A stretch of 64,000 nucleotides of DNA from Telopea speciosissima (taxonomy: Eukaryota > Streptophyta > Magnoliopsida > Proteales > Proteaceae). This document shows positions 600-64,000 of this stretch, piece after piece. Position 1 is the stretch's first letter. Each line of letters starts with the position of its first letter. The stretch spans positions 2,542,001-2,606,000 of the forward strand of contig NC_057924.1 in the NCBI RefSeq assembly GCF_018873765.1. Direction: 5' to 3'. Position numbers and translations under genes: made by a program. The notes under the pieces are model-generated. The model was not told the DNA's origin and ran no database searches. It was given only the letters and a program-made list of their open reading frames with translations.

Positions 600-1065
600 G
601 AAAATAGAGAAAACCAATTTCGGGGGACGGGGAGATGAAAGAGGAACTAGGGTTCTCGGATTTGGTTTCAAATTTTGAAAAGTGCATCGGATCGGGTTCA
701 CACAAACGGGTGAGAGAGAGTGACATGGAACCAAATGGGATTAAAAATAGAGTTTAAGGTATACAGCCGTTGGATTCGTTGAATGCCAGGTGGAGCAATC
801 TCAGGGGGTGTTGCACCGTCTAACTCCCGCCTGCGGAACATTCTTGCCACTAGTGTACCAGCAAAATTTCGTCCCACGAGCCAGAGCCGGCTTGACTTTA
901 TACTTCCATCTCTCTCTTTCCAACCTGAATCTTCTCTAGTAAGTCAAGTGTCTGTGGCTTCGATGTCTTCTTATCTCTCCTTCAATCTACTTATACCAGA
1001 GAACCAAAACAGCGTTCGGAGGTGTCCAATCCAACGAGAGAAAGAAGAAAAGTTGCAGACACGAC

Positions 1066-1092
1066 CACGAGTACGAGTACGAGTACAAGCAC
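1066..1092 (+). repeat. ACGAGT microsatellite in the ABCC 5' leader
   Basis: Imperfect hexamer repeats (ACGAGT, drifting to ACAAGC) end a few bases before the chosen ATG at 1097. The frame stays open upstream and would read as a Thr/Ser run, but it contains no upstream ATG, so this is taken as 5' UTR. Confidence 0.6.
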
Positions 1093-1096
1093 GATC

Positions 1097-10005
<8,909 letters not shown>

Positions 10006-11227: not shown

Positions 11228-11547
11228 AATTTTCATTTTTTTTTATCAATATTGTCCATGTTTCAAGTTTCAACCCACAAGAAGCTATATAAAAAATGGG
11301 GCGCTGTATTCTGTGCTGCAGCACAGGCTGCGCCCAGGCACATGGGGATGGGCGCAATGACTACCCTGTCCCCCTGAGTGGTAGGCCCATGTGCCTAGGT
11401 GCAGCCTGCGTTGCGGCACAGAGAACATTCTCTCATAAAAAATGGCTTCCTACTTGCATTCTTATTCTTATTTTTTATATAGCTTTCTGTGTTATCAGTT
11501 AAAACTTGAAACATGGACAATTCTGATAGAAAAAAATGAAAAATTAG
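11228..11547. mobile_element. Fold-back element with a nested palindrome
   Basis: Outer arms 11228-11297 and 11470-11547 are reverse complements, sharing TTGTCCATGTTTCAAGTTT and AGCTATATAAAAAA. The centre holds a second, GC-rich inverted repeat: GCACAGGCTGCGCCCAGGCA against TGCCTAGGTGCAGCCTGCG. The GC-rich core belongs to a dispersed family also seen at 14951-15047. The nested symmetry suggests one palindromic element inserted into another or a composite MITE. No transposase is present. Confidence 0.75.
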
Positions 11548-26394: not shown

Positions 26395-27122
26395 TTGCGT
26401 TTAACCTCTTCTTTGCCGTCGTAGAACAGAGGTTATGTGACAGTCTCTGAATTTACTGAAGCTCTGAAGAGATGATGATGGTGATGATCGAGGAGTATGT
26501 GGTAAAGATCTCCTGCCCATTTCACCATTTTTATGGTTCTCTTGTGTTTTTCGTGGAAGGTTGTTAAATTTAAGCCCATTTGAACAGAGATCTGGAAGCA
26601 ACATTTCTTCCTTATGATTTGATTCTTTTTCTTTCTCCCCTCTTCTTATAGCGTTTTGGTTTTTATTGGGTTTTGATTCATCTGGGTTTGTTTCAGCTAA
26701 ATTAGGGATTTTAATTTAGTGATTGTAGTTGAACTGTTTTTTTCTCTTGGTGGGTTGATGATGGGCAAGGTTTTTCTAGCGTTGTAAGATAATTTTTAAG
26801 TTTCTGAGAGTTTGGGATTGAAACCCTAGAAATGATGCCCTTCATTTTCTTCGTCGATCAGTTTTACTTTTGTTTGATCAAAATTGAAATTTGAAAGTCA
26901 ACTTAATCTTTTGGGATTCCAAAGTCAATACCCTTTTGCTTGTTTCGAATCCCAAGTCCGATGGATGATGTCGACTAGGTTTTGGGAAATTGTTGTTCTT
27001 CCTGATCTATCTTTATCCATATCTTTGTTCTGACAAGTGGGTGTCCTGGATTGAGGTCTGAAGGCTATATATTACGTGTAGCGCTTTATTGGGAATTGGG
27101 TTTGTTGCTTTCTGGTTTACTG
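26395..27122 (+). promoter_or_regulatory. Probable 5' leader of the J-domain gene
   Basis: No coding frame here. The T-rich stretch after GTATGTGGTAAAGATCTCC (about 26490-26510) and an AG-ended stretch before the ATG could mark a 5' UTR intron, common in this gene type. This cannot be proved from sequence alone. Confidence 0.3.
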
Positions 27123-29321
27123 ATGGAGTGCAATATAGAGGAAGCTGTTAGAGCTAAGGAGACTGCTGAGAAGAAATTCGCCGAGAATGATTTTGCAGGT
27201 GCGAAGAAATACGCAATTAAGGCCCAAAAATTGAATCCTGGATTGGAGGGCATCTCTCAAATGCTAGCCACCTTTGATGTTTATGTTGCTTCTCAGGTTC
27301 AGATTAATGGTGAAACTGATTTTTATTCGATCCTTGGATTGAACCCAGTAGCAGATGATGATACTGTTAAGAAACAGTATAGGAAATTGGCAGTGATGCT
27401 TCACCCCGACAAGAACAGAACTGTGGGAGCTGAAGGAGCATTCAAGCTTGTGTCAGATGCGTGGACACTGTTATCAGACAATGTTAAAAGGACTTCATAT
27501 GATCTCAGGAGAAACAGGCAATCCACAACTGTGGTTAATCCCACCAACTCTGCAGTTCAGAACACCAAGGTTAAGGGGTGTTTGAAGTCCAACAAGTCGA
27601 AGCTTCGAACTTTCTGGACTGTGTGCACTTCATGTCGAGTGCAGTACGAGTATCTCCGTAAGTATGTGAACAAGAGACTCTCTTGTAAGAACTGCCGGAG
27701 AACCTTTGTGGCTGTAGAGACAGTGAAACCTCCGGAAACCAGTCCGATCCCTTTCTGTTCTTGGTCAGTTTTGCCTGAGAATGTCCATGGAAGTCACGGG
27801 TTCAATGGGTTGACATATATTCCGGCTAGCACCATTGTTTTCACGGGAACTGGGTTCGGGGGATTCCATTCTGGTGTGGGCTACGAGTATCCTAATATGG
27901 CTTTCCAGTGGAGTCCTTTCCCTGGAACCCCTGCTGCTGGGTTTGCAGGCGTTCATGGACCAACAACAGGTGTTCCTTCTCCATCTCCAGCTCCATCCGC
28001 TGGTAGTGTTCATCAGTCCAGCAGCAACAATGTCAAAAGACACGGAGAGAAGATCAAGGCAGCAGCAGCAGCAGCAGCAGCAGCCAAGGACAAAGATCTT
28101 ACAGAGAATGGCAGTGCAATGGGCGCTAAGGCTTCCATTGAACTTACAACCTCTGCTAAAAGTGATAGGCATGAGAAGAAAAGGAAGACCAATGAAGGAA
28201 CTTCCATGAACGGGTACCAAGAAGAAAAGAGGACCAGAACTGTGATTTCAGAAACAAAAACGGCCAATGGGGTAGGAAACCTCACACAGGATGCGAAGAA
28301 GTTCCCTAGCACAGGTGAGGCTCCAAATAGACGTTGCTCGGCTGCGCCGGCATTTGATGCTCGGCAGCTGCTCATTGACAAGGCTAGGACAGAAATCCGA
28401 AAGAAATTGGAAGAGATGAAATCCGCTGCAGCAGCAGCAGCAGCTAAGCCAAGTGAGAACTCCAAAGCCCAGTTACCTGCGAGGGGTAATGCTGATCAGG
28501 GTGATTGTGCTGATGAATCACAGACAAACCAACCTGGACCTGGGTCCATCTCTATAAGTGTTCCTGACCCAGACTTTCATGACTTCGACAAGGACAGATT
28601 GGAGGAATGCTTCAAGCCGAAACAGGTATGGGCCATGTATGATGAAGAAGATGGCATGCCTCGCTTGTACTGTCTGGTCCGCCAGGTTATCTCAGTGAAA
28701 CCATTCAAGATTCGCATCACTCGCTTGAACTCTAAATCCGACAGTGAATTTGGGTTGGTGAATTGGGTGGATTCTGGGTTCGTCAAATCTTGTGGACATT
28801 TCAGGGCATGGGATACGGAAGATGTTGAGTTGGTTAACATCTTCTCCCATATCCTCCCCCATGGAGCCAAAGCTGGCAGGGGAGGTTGCATTCGGATTTT
28901 CCCCAAGAGAGGTGACATCTGGGCTGTTTACCGGAATTGGTCTCCGGATTGGAATCGCACAACCCCAGACGAAGTGAGGCACCAGTATGAGATGGTGGAG
29001 GTTCTCGATGACTACAACGAAGAGCTGGGCATCTGTGTTACTCCACTCATCAAATTGGATGGATTCAAGACAGTATATCAGAAGAATAGTGATCAGAAAG
29101 CAGTCCAGTGGATTCCTCGCAGAGAGATGTTGCGGTTTTCACACCAGGTACCGTCATGGCTGCTTCAAGGAGAAGTCAGTACTAATCTTCCTGTTGGATG
29201 CTGGGATCTGGACCCAGCTGCGACCCCGGAAGAGCTGCTTCATGGTGCAGGTCTAATGGAAACAAGGACTATTGATGATAAACCTGAACCTGTTCAGACG
29301 AATTGGATTTGTGAAATGTAG
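27123..29321 (+). CDS. J-domain protein with DUF3444 domain
   Basis: Single-exon gene for 732 residues. Residues 66-130 are a J domain (DFYSILGLNP, HPDKN with HPD at 94-96, SYDLRR), which stimulates the ATPase of Hsp70. Before it lies an N-terminal helix region (EEAVRAKETAEKKF) typical of this plant class. Residues 168-191 hold two CxxC pairs (CTSC, CKNC) resembling a zinc ribbon. The C-terminal third, about 490-700, is a DUF3444 domain (KPKQVWAMYDEEDGMPRLYC, GDIWAVYRNWSPDW). Two poly-alanine runs, near residues 312 and 435, are encoded by GCA repeats. The first ATG in frame before the conserved start (MECNIEEAVRAKE) was chosen. The stop is the first of six consecutive TAG triplets. Exact cellular role unknown; nuclear location is common for the class. 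Confidence 0.92.
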   Translation: MECNIEEAVRAKETAEKKFAENDFAGAKKYAIKAQKLNPGLEGISQMLATFDVYVASQVQINGETDFYSILGLNPVADDDTVKKQYRKLAVMLHPDKNRTVGAEGAFKLVSDAWTLLSDNVKRTSYDLRRNRQSTTVVNPTNSAVQNTKVKGCLKSNKSKLRTFWTVCTSCRVQYEYLRKYVNKRLSCKNCRRTFVAVETVKPPETSPIPFCSWSVLPENVHGSHGFNGLTYIPASTIVFTGTGFGGFHSGVGYEYPNMAFQWSPFPGTPAAGFAGVHGPTTGVPSPSPAPSAGSVHQSSSNNVKRHGEKIKAAAAAAAAAKDKDLTENGSAMGAKASIELTTSAKSDRHEKKRKTNEGTSMNGYQEEKRTRTVISETKTANGVGNLTQDAKKFPSTGEAPNRRCSAAPAFDARQLLIDKARTEIRKKLEEMKSAAAAAAAKPSENSKAQLPARGNADQGDCADESQTNQPGPGSISISVPDPDFHDFDKDRLEECFKPKQVWAMYDEEDGMPRLYCLVRQVISVKPFKIRITRLNSKSDSEFGLVNWVDSGFVKSCGHFRAWDTEDVELVNIFSHILPHGAKAGRGGCIRIFPKRGDIWAVYRNWSPDWNRTTPDEVRHQYEMVEVLDDYNEELGICVTPLIKLDGFKTVYQKNSDQKAVQWIPRREMLRFSHQVPSWLLQGEVSTNLPVGCWDLDPAATPEELLHGAGLMETRTIDDKPEPVQTNWICEM

Positions 29322-55949: not shown

Positions 55950-58215
55950 TCTCTTAATTTTGTCACTAAATAAAGTTTTTAGAGTGTTACCAGACGGAAC
56001 CTTATTTCATATACACTTAAAATTTCTAAAATCCTTACATTTTTCTTCCTTTTTGTTGCAAACCCAGAGAAAGGAGTGACTCCCACAACCCAAAATGAAG
56101 AAAACCCAATGGCCATTTAGCAACACAAAGCTTTCAAGTCCAACTCCTCCAACCATATATGCTAGCCATTTTTACCACTTAGAAGTTAGCATGCAGTTCA
56201 TTATTTGAAGAACAAAATGGAAATGCTAGTAGAAAAAAATGACAAAATCACAACCTAACACTTACCTCTGCAAATCGTCGTTTTACAAGATCCAAATGGG
56301 GATGCAGATAAAAAAAATTATCAGAGCAACGATAACGATTATCTTTCATCACATAAACGGTATTATCATCATATGAGAAAAAACCAACTCCACCACTCAA
56401 TGGTTCTATCAGGGTACCTCAATACATTTTACAACTTTCATCACAAGAAGGGTGAATCGGGGAATGATCAGTAGAGAATCGAGGAGACTCAGAAGTTGCT
56501 GCCCTGGTGCAGCAACCGCTCAAGTGGAAATTCCCTCGGGTTTTTGGGGAAAGGTCTGCAGGGGAAGAAGAAGAAGTAGTTCGTGAAAAGTATAGACTTA
56601 TCACTTTGGATCCATGGGATTGTTGGGTTTCCTCATAGAAATAACTGAGGGTTGCTCACTGCCCTATATTAACAAACACAACTCAAATGATCCGTGGCAT
56701 CAGGAGCCCAGCAAAATAAAGGGAAGGAAAATACTGTAAGGCTCATTCATAAGGCTCACATCTCAGAGTTTAACCATGCAAACATGATAATGAAATCTAA
56801 ACCTACCAATTGGATCCCATATTGGAGATTCTACTGTTCAAATGCACAATTGGACAATAAAATACACCAAGGAGATTAGTTGCTAGAATATTTCTTATTT
56901 TCCTCTATGAACAATCATCCAAATATGAAATCTGATGATTGAGACAATCCAATCATGAAAACTGCATACGAGACCACATAGTTGGGGGGATTACTGATTG
57001 CAAGAAGGGGGGGGGGGGAAGGAGAAGTAATAGATATATGAAAGCACTTTAACAATGAATAAAGGGGAATGGCTTCAAATAATTCATTCTATCCATACAA
57101 TTTTTTGTGGACATAGAATCAAATCAAAATTAAGTCTAATAGCAACGGCATAAAATCATACAGAAGAACCAGAGACTTGTTCTTATTTGAATAGAGAAGG
57201 CTCTTCTTATTCATTCTAAAAAGAATTATATGTACAATACAGTTCCTGTAAACCTTTTACAAAAACTACAACAACTCAACCCCTTATTCAGAATATATTA
57301 CAAAGAGATTAGCAGCATAGCTTTTAGCTTCCCCTTAACATCCAAATGCCGCATTAGAGCAGATAACAATCAGGATCAACTTGCAACAAGAAATCTTCAA
57401 GCGATACCTGACAAACTCACTTTTTCTCTATAATTCTTCTCTGAAGTGATCATAAAATAATTAGGAAGGCATCATAAAAACTGCCAGCTACCCATTGAAC
57501 ATTGTTCCGAGCAGCCAGGTGCCTCTTCAAAATAATCAAACCTGGCAGCCGCTGCTCTCCCAGCATCCCTAGAGAAATAATTGTTCAATAAAGTCAGCAT
57601 GTATTATTTCAACGTTCCTACTGATGCAAACTTACTTGTCACTTATCATGGGTTAATCAAACGCATTTACAGAAACATATCATTGATAAGTAAGGAAATC
57701 CAACTTATCCAAAGACCAACTTTTGTACCAACTTCCTACCACACAATGAAGAATTTTTTGAGGAAATATAGGTAAAATTTTAGTGCATGTGTGTTCCTTT
57801 TTTCCTTTCTTTGGTGGAACTATTATATAATTTACCAATAAAAAAGACTACATGAAATATTCAAAATATAAAAAAATAAAAAAGGGAGAGGGTTTCCGAA
57901 GCCGCCAAAGGGGGGGCGTAATCGTTTTCGTCAATAGGGTGGTCCACATAGTCAGGGATGCAAGAGGGTGTGGGAAAGCATCCCCGCACTGATGGCGTGG
58001 GGATCTGATTTCCCTATAAAAAAAAAAACAAGGAACAAGGGGTAAACAAAAATATTAATAAAATAAAATATGCTATGACACTAGTATAACAACAATACAT
58101 AATACTTTTGAATAACAAACACCACAATAATGAGAAGAATGAAGTGCATTACTCATTTACATCAAACATTAGTGCTGAGCCTAATACACTGGTTACACAC
58201 ACACACACACCAAAA
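55950..58215. other. Intergenic region with possible orphan exons
   Basis: No complete gene recognised. Minus-strand open stretches near 56272-56418 and 57477-57570 end or begin at good splice sites but cannot be linked into a gene; see the findings and rejected list. G-run near 57008 and low-complexity tracts near 57870 and 58020. Confidence 0.35.
58195..58211. repeat. AC microsatellite
   Basis: (CA)n of about eight units. Confidence 0.85.
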
Positions 58216-58223
58216 AATAAAAA

Positions 58224-58284
58224 AGAGTCCCAGTGCATGAGGCTCCAGCGCACAACTTAACCGTTGCACCAAGGCTCACCCACT
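58224..58284 (-). mobile_element. Au-type SINE fragment
   Basis: Minus strand: GTGAGCCTTGGTGCAACGGT (A-box head), then directly GGAGCCTCATGCACTGGGA (tail) and T-rich end. The middle is deleted. Confidence 0.7.
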
Positions 58285-58337
58285 ACTGTGGTTACACACT
58301 CAAAATAATTAAAGAGAAGACAGTCATCTGCGAAAAC

Positions 58338-58405
58338 AAAAGGGGTGTACCCAGTGCACAGGCTCCCAACAGGGGTCTGGGGAGGGTCATATGTACGCAG
58401 CAACC
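58338..58405 (-). mobile_element. Au-type SINE 3' fragment at the inverted-repeat junction
   Basis: Minus strand: GCTGCGTACATATGACCC, CCAGACCCCTGTTGGGAGCC, TGTGCACTGGGTACACCCC. The 5' side is cut off exactly where the inverted copy of the cytokinin-receptor 3' end begins; the bases CAGCAACC are shared by both sides. Confidence 0.75.
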
Positions 58406-59313
58406 TTCTTTGGTAATGGTTGATTTAGTGGGAGTAAAGCGGTATCAGCTGTTCTATTGATGGTAAGCCCCGAGATATCAAAAGAACCTTGAAAGCGATC
58501 TAGGTATTTAGTGATAAGTCTTCTTGCAACCATTGGCATCTGACCTCACAAATCTACTGGGCTTCTCTGCTTTGGTAATTCCTTAATACGAAACTCTATT
58601 TAATAATAATGTAGGCATGCACAGGTCAAGCACAAATTGTTACTTTGCCTTCTTCAAAACAGCCTAACATGCAAGAGAAGACTAAATACCGTGCAAAGTA
58701 ATATCCTAGGAATGCAAAGAAGAGGTGAGAAGAATGACATGCACAATTAAGGAACACTAACACAACATGCAAAACTAGTCTTTGAAATAGCAAAACATGG
58801 GTGTATGACCACTACCTAAAGAGGTAGGATCACAACCCATTTGTATGCAATAGCAAAGTAAGGTGAATGAACACAAAAGGAGGAAGAGACAAGATAAAAC
58901 AAAAGCAAGCACTAGAGGCTTACCTGATTGAGGAACCACGAAGAAGGAAGGTTGGAGGCTGCTCTTGACTCATGAGTCTCAATCAGATTCAAACACCCAC
59001 CACTTAGGGTTTCAAGTTTCTCTCTCTTCAACCATACTTCAAAGACTCAAAAGTAGCCAAAGAGGGATCCCTCAAAACATGTGCATGCCTGCACTATTAT
59101 TAAATAGAGTTACATATTAAGAAATTACCAATGCAGAGAAGCCCAGAAGATTGGTGAGGCCAGATGCCACTGGTTGCAAGAAGACTCCTCACCAAATACC
59201 CAGATCGCTTTCAAGGTTCTTCTGACATAGTGACATCTCAGGGCTGACCATCAATAGAACAGCTGCTACCACGTTAATCCCACTAAATCAACCATTACCA
59301 AAGAAGGTTGCTG
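58401..59313. repeat. Long inverted repeat made from the cytokinin-receptor 3' end
   Basis: Left arm 58401-58623 and right arm 59079-59313 are reverse complements over about 220-235 bases, by eye roughly 85-90% identical with one indel of about 8 bases. Both arms contain AACCTTCTTTGGTAATGG, GAACCTTGAAAGCGATCT, GTCTTCTTGCAACCA and ACTCTATTTAATAATA. The right arm is contiguous with the duplicated last-exon sequence of the receptor gene, so it is the source and the left arm the inverted copy. The spacer is about 455 bases and shows no gene. Confidence 0.85.
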
Positions 59314-59382
59314 TTGCAGAGTAGAGCTGTTCTTTTTCAAATGGCTTTGACGCATCACCATCCATCCCACATTTCATGCACT
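59290..59382 (-). pseudogene. Tandem partial copy of the AHK4-like last exon
   Basis: Directly after the receptor's TAG stop the minus strand repeats the end of the exon: TGCATGAAATGTGGGATGG, GCCATTTGAAAAAGAACAGC, TTCTTTGGTAATGGTTGA. In its own frame it reads [20 protein letters not shown] and TATFFGNG then stop, parallel to the real [20 protein letters not shown] end. It lies beyond the stop and in another frame, so it is untranslated in the normal product. The copy keeps some codons closer to the remembered family sequence (ECMKCGMDG). Confidence 0.8.
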
Positions 59383-62354
59383 CTAACCAGAACCAAAGAA
59401 GCTTGCCACTGCAGAGTATAGCTGTTCTTCTTCAAATGGCTTCGACACATAACCATCCATCCCACATTTCACATATTCTTCCTGTGTTGCTTGAATCACA
59501 TCAGCTGTCATAGCAAGTATTGGAGTGTGCCAGTGCACCACATTCTCTAACATCTCAATTGATGCAACCTGTGATCTAATCTGTTCATTGACCTTGTTCT
59601 CTATAGAGCGAACTTGTCTTGTGGCCTCAAACCTGCACAAATTATGGGGAGGAATAGTAAGAAAGAAACTTAAGTATAAAAGGAGGGGTTTAATTGCAAC
59701 GACCCTAATGATAACCTATGTTCAGCAACCGATGTCATCCAATCTAACTGCATTTCCATGGACTATCCTTATTTTCTGATCGTCTTGGAAAGCGAACTAG
59801 GTTGGATGGTTAGGGTCATCCAATCAGGCCAACAGGCGCATCATTAGGATCGCAACATAGCTATCCTGGGTTTCCTCAATATTTGAAATTCAAAGAAATC
59901 AAAAACAAAAAGGCAGTTAATTACCCATCCATCTCTGGCATCTGGAGATCCATAAAGCAAGCATCAAACTTGTGAGGTGGCTGGAGCATCCCTACGGCAT
60001 CCTTCCCGCTCTCAACACATGTGACAGTGGCTCCGTACTTCTTTAGTGCACCTGTGGCCACCCTGCGGTTAACAACATTGTCATCCACAACCAAAATTTG
60101 CTTTCCACTCAGTAAACTTCGAAGGCTTGATATATTCCCTCTCCCTCTATCCCGTTGCCTCCGGTCCCCTATGCCAAGGGCTTGCTGAAAATATGTGGTC
60201 ATCATAGTTAAGCAAAGGGGTTTCTTAATTACACCATCAATAGTTGATTTGAACTGGTCAATCTCAGTGGAGCCTGAAGAAGCAAGGAGGAAAATCTTTA
60301 CACAATCTCCAGGGTACCTCTCTCTCCCATTTTGTCTGAGTTCATTAATCAGACAAGGAAGCGTAAGACTTGTTTGCTTACTCCAAGCATCTTCGTCAAC
60401 AAGAACCATGTCGAAATGTGTCATCAAACTGAGAAGAAGAAAATTAAGGAAATAATCACCCAATTAGGTTCCAAAGCTTTTAATAAATCCAAAGCAAAAG
60501 TTATTTTTTATTATTTTTATTCTGAGACTGGATACTCAATGTTTCCATCAACACTAGTAACAGAACTAGACTTTGACAAGCAATTCCATATCTTGGCTTC
60601 CTCTCCCCACCCCCCTCCCCTCCCCTCCCCTCCCCTGGTAAAGTAGCAAGCTGCTTAAACTTTTCCAAGAATTTCATTCTATTGTGCAAAACTAAAAGAC
60701 TTGATAACCTACTACATTTTTTTAAAGTCAGTTTCAGGTCATCAGTTGGACCAAGTCTCGATCTCAAATAGCTTCGTAAAAAATTCATACCACTTCACCT
60801 TTTTCGTATGGCAAAAGTTTCTCTAAATGAGCATGTCTAAAGGGCTATCTCTTGGTGAGTACAGTGGCTCCACCATGAGGAGAGCAGATGTGGCCAGTTC
60901 AATCAATGGATAGATAGAGCATCCCTTGGAAGGTTTACATTTTAAATTTCGTAGCCAGTTCCAAATATATGACCCACCATTTAGTGGATTTGTGTCCCCA
61001 TGTATTCTCAGCTGTCAAATCAGTTGAGGGTGTAGAATAGATACAGGACCATGTGAATTGTCCATCTGTGAAATCTAAAAGCCAAACTCAATGATATGAT
61101 CCACTTGGATTGAACCTTACTGTATCATAAGTCATCCAAATCTTAATGAAAATTGACCTATTGACTGCCACATGGTGTAGTACTTTGTGGGCTGAAACTT
61201 ATTACCATATAAAGGATGACGTGACATCTTGTCCACAAAATTTCAGCACAACTAAGCTGCCACATAGGGCGAGAGCACTTGTTAAGAGATACCTCTCTAG
61301 ACGTGCACATTTAGAATAACTCTGACCTTCTTTTTTCTAATAAAAATGAAATGTGCCAAGCCTTAGATTTTCAAGGTTGCATGGGCATGACAGGTTCCTT
61401 GTCATTACTAGTTGGGAGTTTGGCCATTTGGGTCCTCCCTTGTGATCCTGGGAGACTATCTCATTCCAAAAGATTTGAGGTCAACCGATGGGATACCAGA
61501 ACATCTGGTAAAAGCAGGCTATTCAAGAAAATCAGTTGCATGAAGGAGTGACTACACCTAACTTATGTTTGTTTTGTACTTTGTAGCTCCTGTGTTGAGT
61601 ACTTGCTAGCCATGTATAATTCTTTATATTTTATCAGTAAATCATCTTAATTATCAATTAATCAGTTATTAGAAAGAGAAAATGTTTACCCTGCGTTGCA
61701 ATTGTTTGATATGTAAGTACACGCCGTTTTCAGACTGGTGGTAATCTCCACCAATATTCCAAGTCTCCGGAGATGGTAACTTGTGACTTTGGCACTGATA
61801 TTCCTCCCATCAACCACCAAAGCTTGCAATCCCTGGAACTCTGTGATTATAGATTTGCTCTGATACCACTTCATATCAAGAGTACTCAATTGTCTTTTTG
61901 CTAAAGCCGCCGTAAATGTGAAGGTACTGCCAATCCCAGGCTTACTCACTACTCCAATCTCACCATGCATCAGCTCTACCAAACACTTGCTAATGCTCAA
62001 GCCAATACCAGTCCCACCATATGTACGAGAAGTGGAACTATCAGCCTGCATAAAAGGCTGGAAGATGCGACTCTGTGCATCATAAGGTATTCCCACACCT
62101 GTATCCTCAACTGTGACTAGTAACCTCATGATATCACTAGCTTCTGTCCAGTTTACACAGCTTAGTGACCTGAAATTCTCCCAGCTTTTCCACCTGTCCA
62201 CCACTGGATACCCACTCAATGTATTATAAGATGTGTCTTTTCCATTCTGAACCAACTCCATGTGTTGTTTCAGCACTTCATCCATGTCTTCTGGCCGGTC
62301 CCTCACTTCATCAGCTAGATGGACTGAGACAAGTATATGCCCTTGCTCTGTGAA
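59383..62354 (-). CDS. AHK4: Cytokinin receptor histidine kinase, AHK4/CRE1-like (3' part)
   Basis: C-terminal part of a hybrid histidine kinase that senses cytokinin and passes phosphate to histidine phosphotransfer proteins. Three exons lie in the window: 61690-62354, 59925-60428 and 59383-59632, joined in frame. The first holds the end of the kinase ATPase domain: [18 protein letters not shown] (G1), [20 protein letters not shown] (F and G2) and [22 protein letters not shown] is typical of AHK4 rather than AHK2/3. Next comes a degenerate receiver-like domain ([10 protein letters not shown] to [10 protein letters not shown]). The true receiver follows: [31 protein letters not shown] (phosphoacceptor Asp), ILAMTADVI and YVSKPF. 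The stop is at 59383. The upstream exons with CHASE domain, membrane spans and phospho-accepting His lie beyond the window; the 1.6 kb after 62354 is intron. Confidence 0.93.
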
Positions 62355-63035
62355 CTGCATTTTAAACATTTTTAAGAATTTAAGTGACAAGGGTAAAAAA
62401 ACAAGCAAGCGACTAACGCAAATCGTGAAATAGGAAAAGATACATGGTTATCAAACTTTAAATAATGATAGCCATCTAACTGGATTGACCTCTCGTGTAG
62501 TGGTCAAACATGTGGGGACTAATCATATAGTGTCTTCCAATGTCCTGAGACCCTTTCATACTAGTAGACCTACTACCTGGCCTTCAAAATGGGCGGATAA
62601 ACCCTGATTTTGGTCAAGTGGGAACAGACCATCAATCACATACAGTTGAACCATTGCACTCAGGTACGTTTATATCATGTATATATAAAACAAATATCTG
62701 AGCACTGGATAAACCATAACCTCACTTTAGATCCAAACTTATTTGCACCATCAACCACCTGACATAGCCAGTAGAACCAGTAACCTGGACCAGCCTCATT
62801 TATGGGTCTTTGAGTGCACTGGGATTCAGATTGGTGTTTTCAAACTCCTCATAGATGTATAATTATATAATAGAATAATACATAATACTACAGTAGACAG
62901 TAAAGACATGCACCATGATGTGATCCTTACTAGGTTAAGAAACAACATGAAGCATAAGATATAGAGAATCTTCCAGAAACTACATTCAACCAGAAAATAT
63001 ATATTAATAATAATAATAATAATAAAGGAAGGGGT

Positions 63036-63163
63036 TTGCTGCCATCCTGTGTGGCCCCCATGCTGGGACTGCATGCACGGGCATCCAAGGGGAGGGCCAG
63101 GGTGGTCATTTCACTGCCCCATGTGAGGGGGCACAGGGAGCGCTATCGGGCAGCATTCTTTTT
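63036..63163. repeat. Dispersed GC-rich repeat copy
   Basis: GGGAGGGCCAGGGTGGTCAT, CCCCATGTGAGGGGGCACAG and TCGGGCAGCATTCTTTTTCC. Related to 55440-55565. It stands out from the AT-rich intron. Confidence 0.5.
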
Positions 63164-63747
63164 CCCTAATAATAAATTTTGTAACTGTTACAAGGTAAAC
63201 CACAACCAGTACCATCTTGAGATCAGCTTTTACAATAATTAAAAGATGATTACATTTCATAGTGCTATTCTTTCTGATAATTAGACATGTGACCCCGCAT
63301 TTTTCTAATTACACCTGACTCTTATAGTTTTCAGCAAAATATACACATATAACCCAGCTCGGTCGGCTTTCCCCTGCCCCACAAAAAATGAGGACCTCAG
63401 TCAGTTGATCACCACTTTAAAGATAATTGACTTACAAAACCTTCTTAAACAGCAATTTTACCCCAGAACAGTGTCGGCACATATCGGTTTAACTATTAGC
63501 TAAACCAGAAAAAAAAAAAAAATTCATATAGACAATGTTTTAAGGACCACACGAGTGCGTTGGGATTATTGACCTATTTGGAGGACAATCCGTGTCAACC
63601 ATCTAACTTGAGGGTCCTCAAGAATGATAGAATGGTCAACATAGCATCCACTCTTGACAATCATATGGTTCATTCCTATGGACCACCCGCATTTGAAAGT
63701 TGGACAGCCAACAATTATTCATTTATTTCAACACTTCAATAAAGGGT

Positions 63748-63832
63748 TGAAGTGCATGAGAGTCGAACCCTGACATTCTACAACTCAAATGAGTTGTTTA
63801 CCACTGTGCCAGTTACTTTCCTGTTTTGAACT
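63748..63832 (-). mobile_element. tRNA-derived SINE or tRNA-like remnant
   Basis: On the minus strand TGGCACAGTGG matches the pol III A box and GGTTCGACTCT nearly matches the B box. The two starts are about 42 bases apart, as in a tRNA. Between them CAACTC...GAGTTG pairs like an anticodon stem, but the loop is 6 bases or fewer. The tRNA acceptor ends do not pair, so a functional tRNA is unlikely. It differs from the Au SINE copies. Confidence 0.55.
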
Positions 63833-64000
63833 TTGACATAACTTAATATCTGATGTCTAAAATGACTCAAATGCATCAAAAAAGGAGACAAACATTGTTT
63901 GAACACAGAGCACTGTAATTTAGAAAGCCTGAAAGTTACAATAACACTGCCATGCCACACAAACTTATGTGTTTACTTCACATAATGAACTCTTAATATT

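Follow-up and report, generated by a model that had tools for sequence, protein, structure and literature searches.

Just beyond the stop codon of a cytokinin-receptor-type histidine kinase gene in Telopea speciosissima, a segment of the gene's 3′ flank stands opposite an inverted copy of itself, and the pair was found at this one place in the genome. The window, the stretch of 64,000 nucleotides that we analysed and to whose numbering all positions refer, holds what appears to be a single-locus inverted duplication of gene flank, non-coding and without a second copy of gene size. Probably it is a chance template-switch duplication, from which long-hairpin siRNAs would be possible only in read-through transcripts and would act on the receptor's own 3′ UTR; among the surrounding transposon debris it is most likely the by-product of a repair event.

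Table 1. Features at the 3′ end of the receptor gene (window coordinates)
Feature	Position	Strand	Remarks
SINE-like element, cut where the left arm begins	58325..58402	+	Fetched-copy alignments
Left arm	58398..58626	+	Inverted copy of the right arm; alignment and genome searches
Spacer, mostly an old dispersed-repeat fragment	58627..59076	.	Repeat part 58666-59079 over all alignments together
Right arm, parental copy: receptor 3′ flank, presumed 3′ UTR	59077..59313	-	Runs directly into the receptor gene
Hexamer AATAAT of the sense arm, resembling a poly(A) signal	59096..59101	-	19-24 bases ahead of the border with the spacer
Decayed tandem relic of the last-exon tail	59290..59376	-	Past the stop, out of frame with the gene
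3′ part of the cytokinin-receptor-type histidine kinase gene	59383..64000	-	HATPase_c, Receiver_CRE1 and Response_reg exons (Pfam)
Functional tail of the receptor's last exon	59385..59471	-	Alignment; stop at 59385-59383

In a gapped alignment, the two arms (Table 1) are identical at 207 of 229 aligned positions and differ by 11 transitions, 11 transversions and two indels of 6 and 2 bases, a K2P distance of 0.103. A spacer of 450 bases separates them, and the entire foldback (58398-59313) spans 916 nt. Receptor sense lies on the plus strand in the left arm and on the minus strand in the right arm. The match between arms is not fortuitous, because each arm retrieves the other at E values of 7e-77 and 5e-77 in a search of the whole 823-Mb genome and the foldback departs from its shuffles with a z-score of −22.9 (see below). 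A preliminary description of this DNA had reported an inverted repeat derived from the receptor locus, and both points hold, the right arm being contiguous with the receptor gene and the left arm its copy; only the coordinates shift slightly, with a spacer of 450 rather than about 455 bases.

Further copies in the genome had been proposed as a check on this interpretation. DNA searches of the whole genome with either arm (822.9 Mb, 1,287 contigs) returned no third copy, so that the arms are found at one place only, and a genome-wide search for a 36-base perfect stretch with up to three mismatches gave two matches, namely the two arms, against none for a reversed control pattern. The DNA search skips very common words and scores the best candidates only; that it does report high-copy repeats is shown by a control foldback element elsewhere in the genome (L039:7099-7560). 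Such elements make a transposon of the foldback or MITE type conceivable, the control itself having at least 39 further full-length copies, but the genome searches found no dispersed copies of the receptor arms and the right arm runs directly into a gene; we regard a transposon origin as scarcely credible, and rejected a dispersed repeat or MITE as the identity of the arms.

The spacer is another matter. It scored at no fewer than 40 genome places, 39 of them elsewhere, and the 14 copies that we fetched align with it at 69-74% identity and have up to about 1.8 kb in common with one another. The preliminary description had named an ordinary dispersed repeat as the finding that would overturn it; this label fits the spacer and does not fit the arms.

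Inverted repeats of such size are not rare in this genome. We surveyed 212,278 bases in 33 records (an 82-kb stretch that includes the window, 28 loci retrieved for other purposes and four hand-placed 10-kb stretches) for arms of at least 150 bases, at least 85% identical and at most 1 kb apart. Two inverted repeats qualified: the receptor-flank repeat and L039:7099-7560, a foldback element with 174-base arms whose further full-length copies (at least 39 scored of 685 candidates) are 87-91% identical. Of the two, only the receptor-flank repeat consists of unique gene flank; the small size and the bias of the sample preclude a rate. A smaller inverted repeat, with arms of about 70 bases that are 84% identical and about 170 bases apart, lies in the window at 11230-11542. 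Also in the window, plus-strand ORFs at 929-9833 presumably belong to an ABCC-type ABC transporter, and a 771-residue plus-strand ORF at 27006-29321 resembles that of a plant J-domain protein.

The gene next to the repeat has the makings of a cytokinin receptor. Minus-strand exons from about 69.8 kb (in coordinates extended beyond the window) down to 59386 encode, in order, CHASE, HisKA, HATPase_c, an AHK4/CRE1-type first receiver and Response_reg domains (Pfam); the HisKA and CHASE exons lie past the window, at about 64276-64644 and 69499-69840. This is the cytokinin-receptor domain set (CHASE, HisKA, HATPase_c, CRE1-type receiver and C-terminal receiver), read from separate exons rather than from a joined full model, and the last exon alone reaches 29.4 bits for Response_reg, just below the Pfam cut-off of 30.2. 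Against the PDB, the receiver exon matched 7p8e_A, "Receiver domain of histidine kinase" (E 8.5e-38), and "histidine kinase 4" (E 1.1e-27). A whole-genome protein search with the same exon returned the exon itself once at 100%, four loci at 50-52% and one weak match at 38%. Since its nearest other loci are only 50-52% identical, the gene is a receptor-type kinase without a close duplicate.

At the 3′ end of this gene, two elements of the preliminary description have to be revised. It placed the end of the receptor's last exon within the right arm; the stop codon, however, is a TAG at 59385-59383, and the arm starts about 70 bases downstream of it. It also spoke of a tandem copy containing last coding bases; that copy is an 87-bp decayed relic of the last-exon tail, past the stop, and is neither a functional exon nor a second gene. 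Relic and tail are identical at 76 of 87 positions (87%), with a period of 95 bases. The first 24 bases of the right arm (59313-59290) are the end of the relic, and the remainder is 3′ flank, presumably 3′ UTR. Both arms thus resemble a protein-gene locus of the same genome well beyond a 21-nt site, as an inverted duplication should, and the resemblance is to 3′ flank, involving the relic exon in 24 bases only. The present stop codon sits between the last-exon tail and the relic, and tandem duplication of that tail may have reset the end of the protein.

How the inverted copy arose is suggested by its left border, where it abuts a SINE-like element that looks like an Au SINE. Six of nine examined copies of this element read ATGTACGCAGC and then continue as SINE sequence, and the window has the same letters, ATGTACGCAGC, followed by the left arm, with a 4-base overlap, CAGC. 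The left arm starts exactly where the SINE-like copies diverge into SINE continuation, which we count in favour of a template switch. In such a history, which we infer from one microhomology junction, a replication template switch or repair event would have copied the receptor's 3′ flank tail-to-tail in inverted orientation and joined it to the SINE-like element at the CAGC microhomology, after the SINE had landed. Two adjoining SINE-like fragments lie left of the left arm, one at 58203-58285 (short matches) and the other the element at 58325-58402. We also considered the left arm as the retroposed 3′ end of a receptor mRNA, and rejected this candidate because inspection of the borders by eye showed neither an A-tail nor a target-site duplication.

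A larger inverted gene copy that was later trimmed would look the same as the product of a template switch. The repeat might accordingly be the remnant of a tail-to-tail inverted copy of the receptor gene, shortened as far as the SINE-like element by a later deletion; the left arm has its start within the last-exon-tail relic and is interrupted by the repeat junction, an anatomy that fits either origin. We nevertheless judge such a remnant unlikely. In 57000-64000, the only inverted receptor sequence found besides the arms is a 22-base match between the left arm and the last-exon tail, a consequence of the relic; the joined 82-kb stretch contains none of 60 bases or more apart from the arms; and the genome holds no second closely related receptor copy.

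Whatever its origin, the repeat has a strong capacity to fold. In receptor sense, its 916 bases fold at −488.2 kcal/mol, compared with −243.0 (sd 10.7) for 20 dinucleotide shuffles, none of which folded as well (z −22.9), and 217 of the 229 stem positions pair, 10 G:U pairs included. When the fold is extended to begin at the stop codon, the arms are joined by 14 helices, the shortest of length 3 and the longest of length 36. The earlier prediction of a long stem in a receptor transcript that crosses both arms is therefore upheld, at about 229 positions. The other strand folds at −427.1 kcal/mol, compared with −213.3 (sd 6.9) for its shuffles (z −30.8). Since any inverted repeat folds well on either strand, these values indicate potential only, and the z-scores do not favour the receptor-sense strand.

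Under the template-switch interpretation, receptor transcripts running past their normal end would form a stem of about 229 positions closed by a loop of 450 bases. Plant transcripts of this kind are diced chiefly by DCL2, DCL3 and DCL4, giving siRNAs of mixed size (21-24 nt); here these would match the receptor's own 3′ UTR and its own locus, and would act in cis or on the mRNA of the receptor itself. Any such effect is probably weak or absent.

The position of possible polyadenylation signals bears on how such transcripts would end. Scanning the receptor-sense strand for 11 poly(A)-type hexamers from the stop codon to the end of the left arm, we found AATAAT as the only one ahead of the spacer; the others, ATTAAA at 58604 and AATAGA at 58600 and 58458, fall in the left arm. 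This weakly suggests, plant signals being loose, that the ordinary receptor mRNA may end before the second arm and would then contain one arm and no hairpin. Farther downstream of the receptor, on the same minus strand, an exon-like open stretch at 57475-57567 runs for 31 residues to a stop. By eye, it is preceded by a splice-acceptor-like sequence, and its phase would fit the receptor intron after ...MPEMDG; a genome search gave one match, the stretch itself. Read-through transcripts of the receptor might use it as an alternative last exon, in which case both arms would fall in an intron; it could also be a chance frame.

One property of the arms would be unexpected in a purely neutral relic and counts against a chance duplication. 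In a receptor-sense transcript, 10 of the 11 transitions between the arms produce G:U and one produces A:C, a departure from the unbiased expectation of one half (p 0.0117, two-sided) in a test that rests on 11 sites and was made alongside several other inspections of the data. On the other strand, those 10 transitions would give A:C. Selection for pairing could produce this bias, as could strand-biased loss of cytosine under receptor-sense transcription. We compared two neighbouring sequences. The relic and its parent tail, which lie outside the stem except at its end, show four G/A and two T/C transitions (receptor sense) among 11 differences, and the different direction of these changes argues against a simple regional mutation bias. 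Relative to the majority of the 14 repeat copies, in columns where at least 65% of copies agree, the plus strand of the spacer has changed from A to G at 17 of 136 positions, from G to A at 7 of 40, from T to C at 6 of 53 and from C to T at 2 of 42. These changes agree in part and in part do not; neither regional bias nor selection is established.

The same evidence bears on whether the locus is an active endogenous source of hairpin siRNAs, with read-through transcripts that are regularly diced and siRNAs that reduce the receptor mRNA or direct DNA methylation to the receptor's 3′ end. We hold this to be possible but doubtful. The receptor-sense strand folds at the lower energy (−488 against −427 kcal/mol), 10 of 11 transitions retain G:U pairing in that strand (p 0.012, two-sided), the gene looks intact and its presumed 3′ UTR contains the parental arm, and both IR71 and the VIM genes, discussed below, offer precedents. 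But the other strand lies further from its own shuffles (z −30.8 against −22.9), the G:U signal comprises 11 sites, the relic pair shows another direction of change and the spacer a mixed one, and with a poly(A)-like hexamer at 59101, ahead of the spacer, the normal mRNA may hold one arm. A stronger version, in which a long-lived cis hairpin is maintained because read-through transcripts are selected for pairing, and siRNAs or a double-stranded 3′ end tune the receptor's own level, strikes us as quite improbable; it would amount to a single-gene, self-limiting circuit in cytokinin sensing with no trans target.

Control of paralogous receptors, which the preliminary description had also envisaged, finds no support in the candidate targets. 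We compared all arm 21-mers with five other receiver-domain loci, covering the fetched exon and 1.5 kb on each side (3.2-3.5 kb per locus). Minimum mismatches were 5, 5, 5, 5 and 5 for the right arm and 5, 4, 6, 5 and 5 for the left arm, against 3-6 for ten block-shuffled versions per arm and 5-6 for the reversed arms. Among these five loci, therefore, the arms found no target in their gene family of origin that shuffled arms did not equal, and we rejected paralogue targeting; the supposed tandem copy, the other proposed target, is the 87-bp relic. The receptor's own coding tail came within 3 mismatches at best, a result of the relic homology, and perfect 21-mer matches were to the receptor's own 3′ flank. 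Within the loci compared, that flank appears to be the only good target. Since siRNAs would find their only good match in the receptor 3′ UTR and the locus itself, any effect would fall on the receptor itself, either in cis or on its mRNA.

The locus had further been put forward as a candidate MIRNA. Its 916-nt foldback far exceeds the roughly 300 nt of a plant MIRNA precursor, a length that miRScore treats as a warning level for plants and not as a failure (PMC12594335). An Rfam search (cmscan, 57000-60500, E up to 1) returned no known RNA family in the arms, its two weak matches falling below the gathering score and lying outside them; a match to a known miRNA family is not required of a new MIRNA. 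The longest identical run between the arms, 36 bases, is within chance for 24 events placed at random in 231 columns (P 0.32) and gives no sign of a protected miRNA-sized block. Gene-derived inverted duplication is a described route to some young MIRNA genes (PMC1790633, PMC3237417), and a proto-MIRNA of this kind, from which a discrete miRNA is or will be cut to regulate the receptor or its paralogues, would fit that model. Here, however, the foldback exceeds the 300-nt miRScore warning level (PMC12594335), the longest identical run is unremarkable, no paralogue is matched beyond shuffles, the arms lack an Rfam match, and about 10% divergence has accrued without a sign of narrowing; we consider it very improbable. 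The long near-complementary stem does agree, as potential only, with an siRNA-producing inverted repeat of the IR71 type. If it acts at all, the locus would act as an endogenous long-hairpin siRNA source on its own gene, the MIRNA features that we tested pointing elsewhere. Among the papers listed by a literature search, none described a hairpin or siRNA locus at a cytokinin receptor, judged by titles and the starts of abstracts.

Silent sites in plants change at about 1.5e-9 to 7e-9 per site and year, and a divergence of 10% would then place the duplication about 7-34 million years ago. The divergence between arms is about 13 times the heterozygosity of 0.76% reported for Telopea speciosissima (PMC13080361). 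Arms that are about 10% diverged do not suit the term newborn, which had been applied to the locus.

Should it be transcribed and diced, the repeat would offer a naturally occurring case of a hormone receptor whose 3′ end carries a hairpin directed at itself, and a stage that can be dated on the way from the debris of gene duplication to a small-RNA locus. If silent, as seems likelier, it serves as a control case, in which a long gene-derived inverted duplication has lasted until its arms differ by about 10% and has not visibly narrowed to a miRNA.

Among known systems, the glutelin locus Lgc1 of rice has a similar layout, a tail-to-tail inverted repeat that is read through at the 3′ end; unlike the receptor flank repeat, it consists of highly similar whole genes and has a dominant silencing phenotype. 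That read-through of inverted repeats can silence genes has been reported (PMC13213937, PMC6196474), and in Arabidopsis Cvi, VIM genes are silenced by a naturally occurring inverted repeat that is read through (PMC13213937). The VIM4-VIM2 repeat, like the receptor repeat, is a natural inverted arrangement of gene sequence, and VIM silencing needs read-through between the arms; yet the VIM genes lie head-to-head, are 99.86% identical and are coding, whereas the receptor arms lie tail-to-tail, comprise 3′ flank only and have diverged (PMC13213937).

IR71, a transcribed endogenous inverted repeat of Arabidopsis, is described as processed by DCL2 and DCL3, secondarily by DCL4 and with some help from DCL1 (PMC12825306). 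The long, imperfect, one-transcript stem of the receptor locus would likewise suit DCL2, DCL3 and DCL4, but IR71 forms about 3 kb of double-stranded RNA with documented siRNAs (PMC12825306), compared with a predicted stem of about 229 positions at the receptor.

In maize, miRNA-like structures within genes are reported to be common and to correlate with small-RNA mapping (PMC10760457). Local inverted gene duplications have been described as giving rise to small RNAs that range from siRNA mixtures to miRNAs (PMC1790633), and large foldbacks may pass first through an siRNA stage (PMC1790633, PMC3237417). Compared with the gene-derived inverted duplications of Arabidopsis and rice (PMC1790633, PMC3237417), the receptor locus is essentially 3′ flank only, with arms about 10% diverged and a spacer of repeat debris; it shares with them an origin in protein-gene sequence, a long foldback and a single locus.
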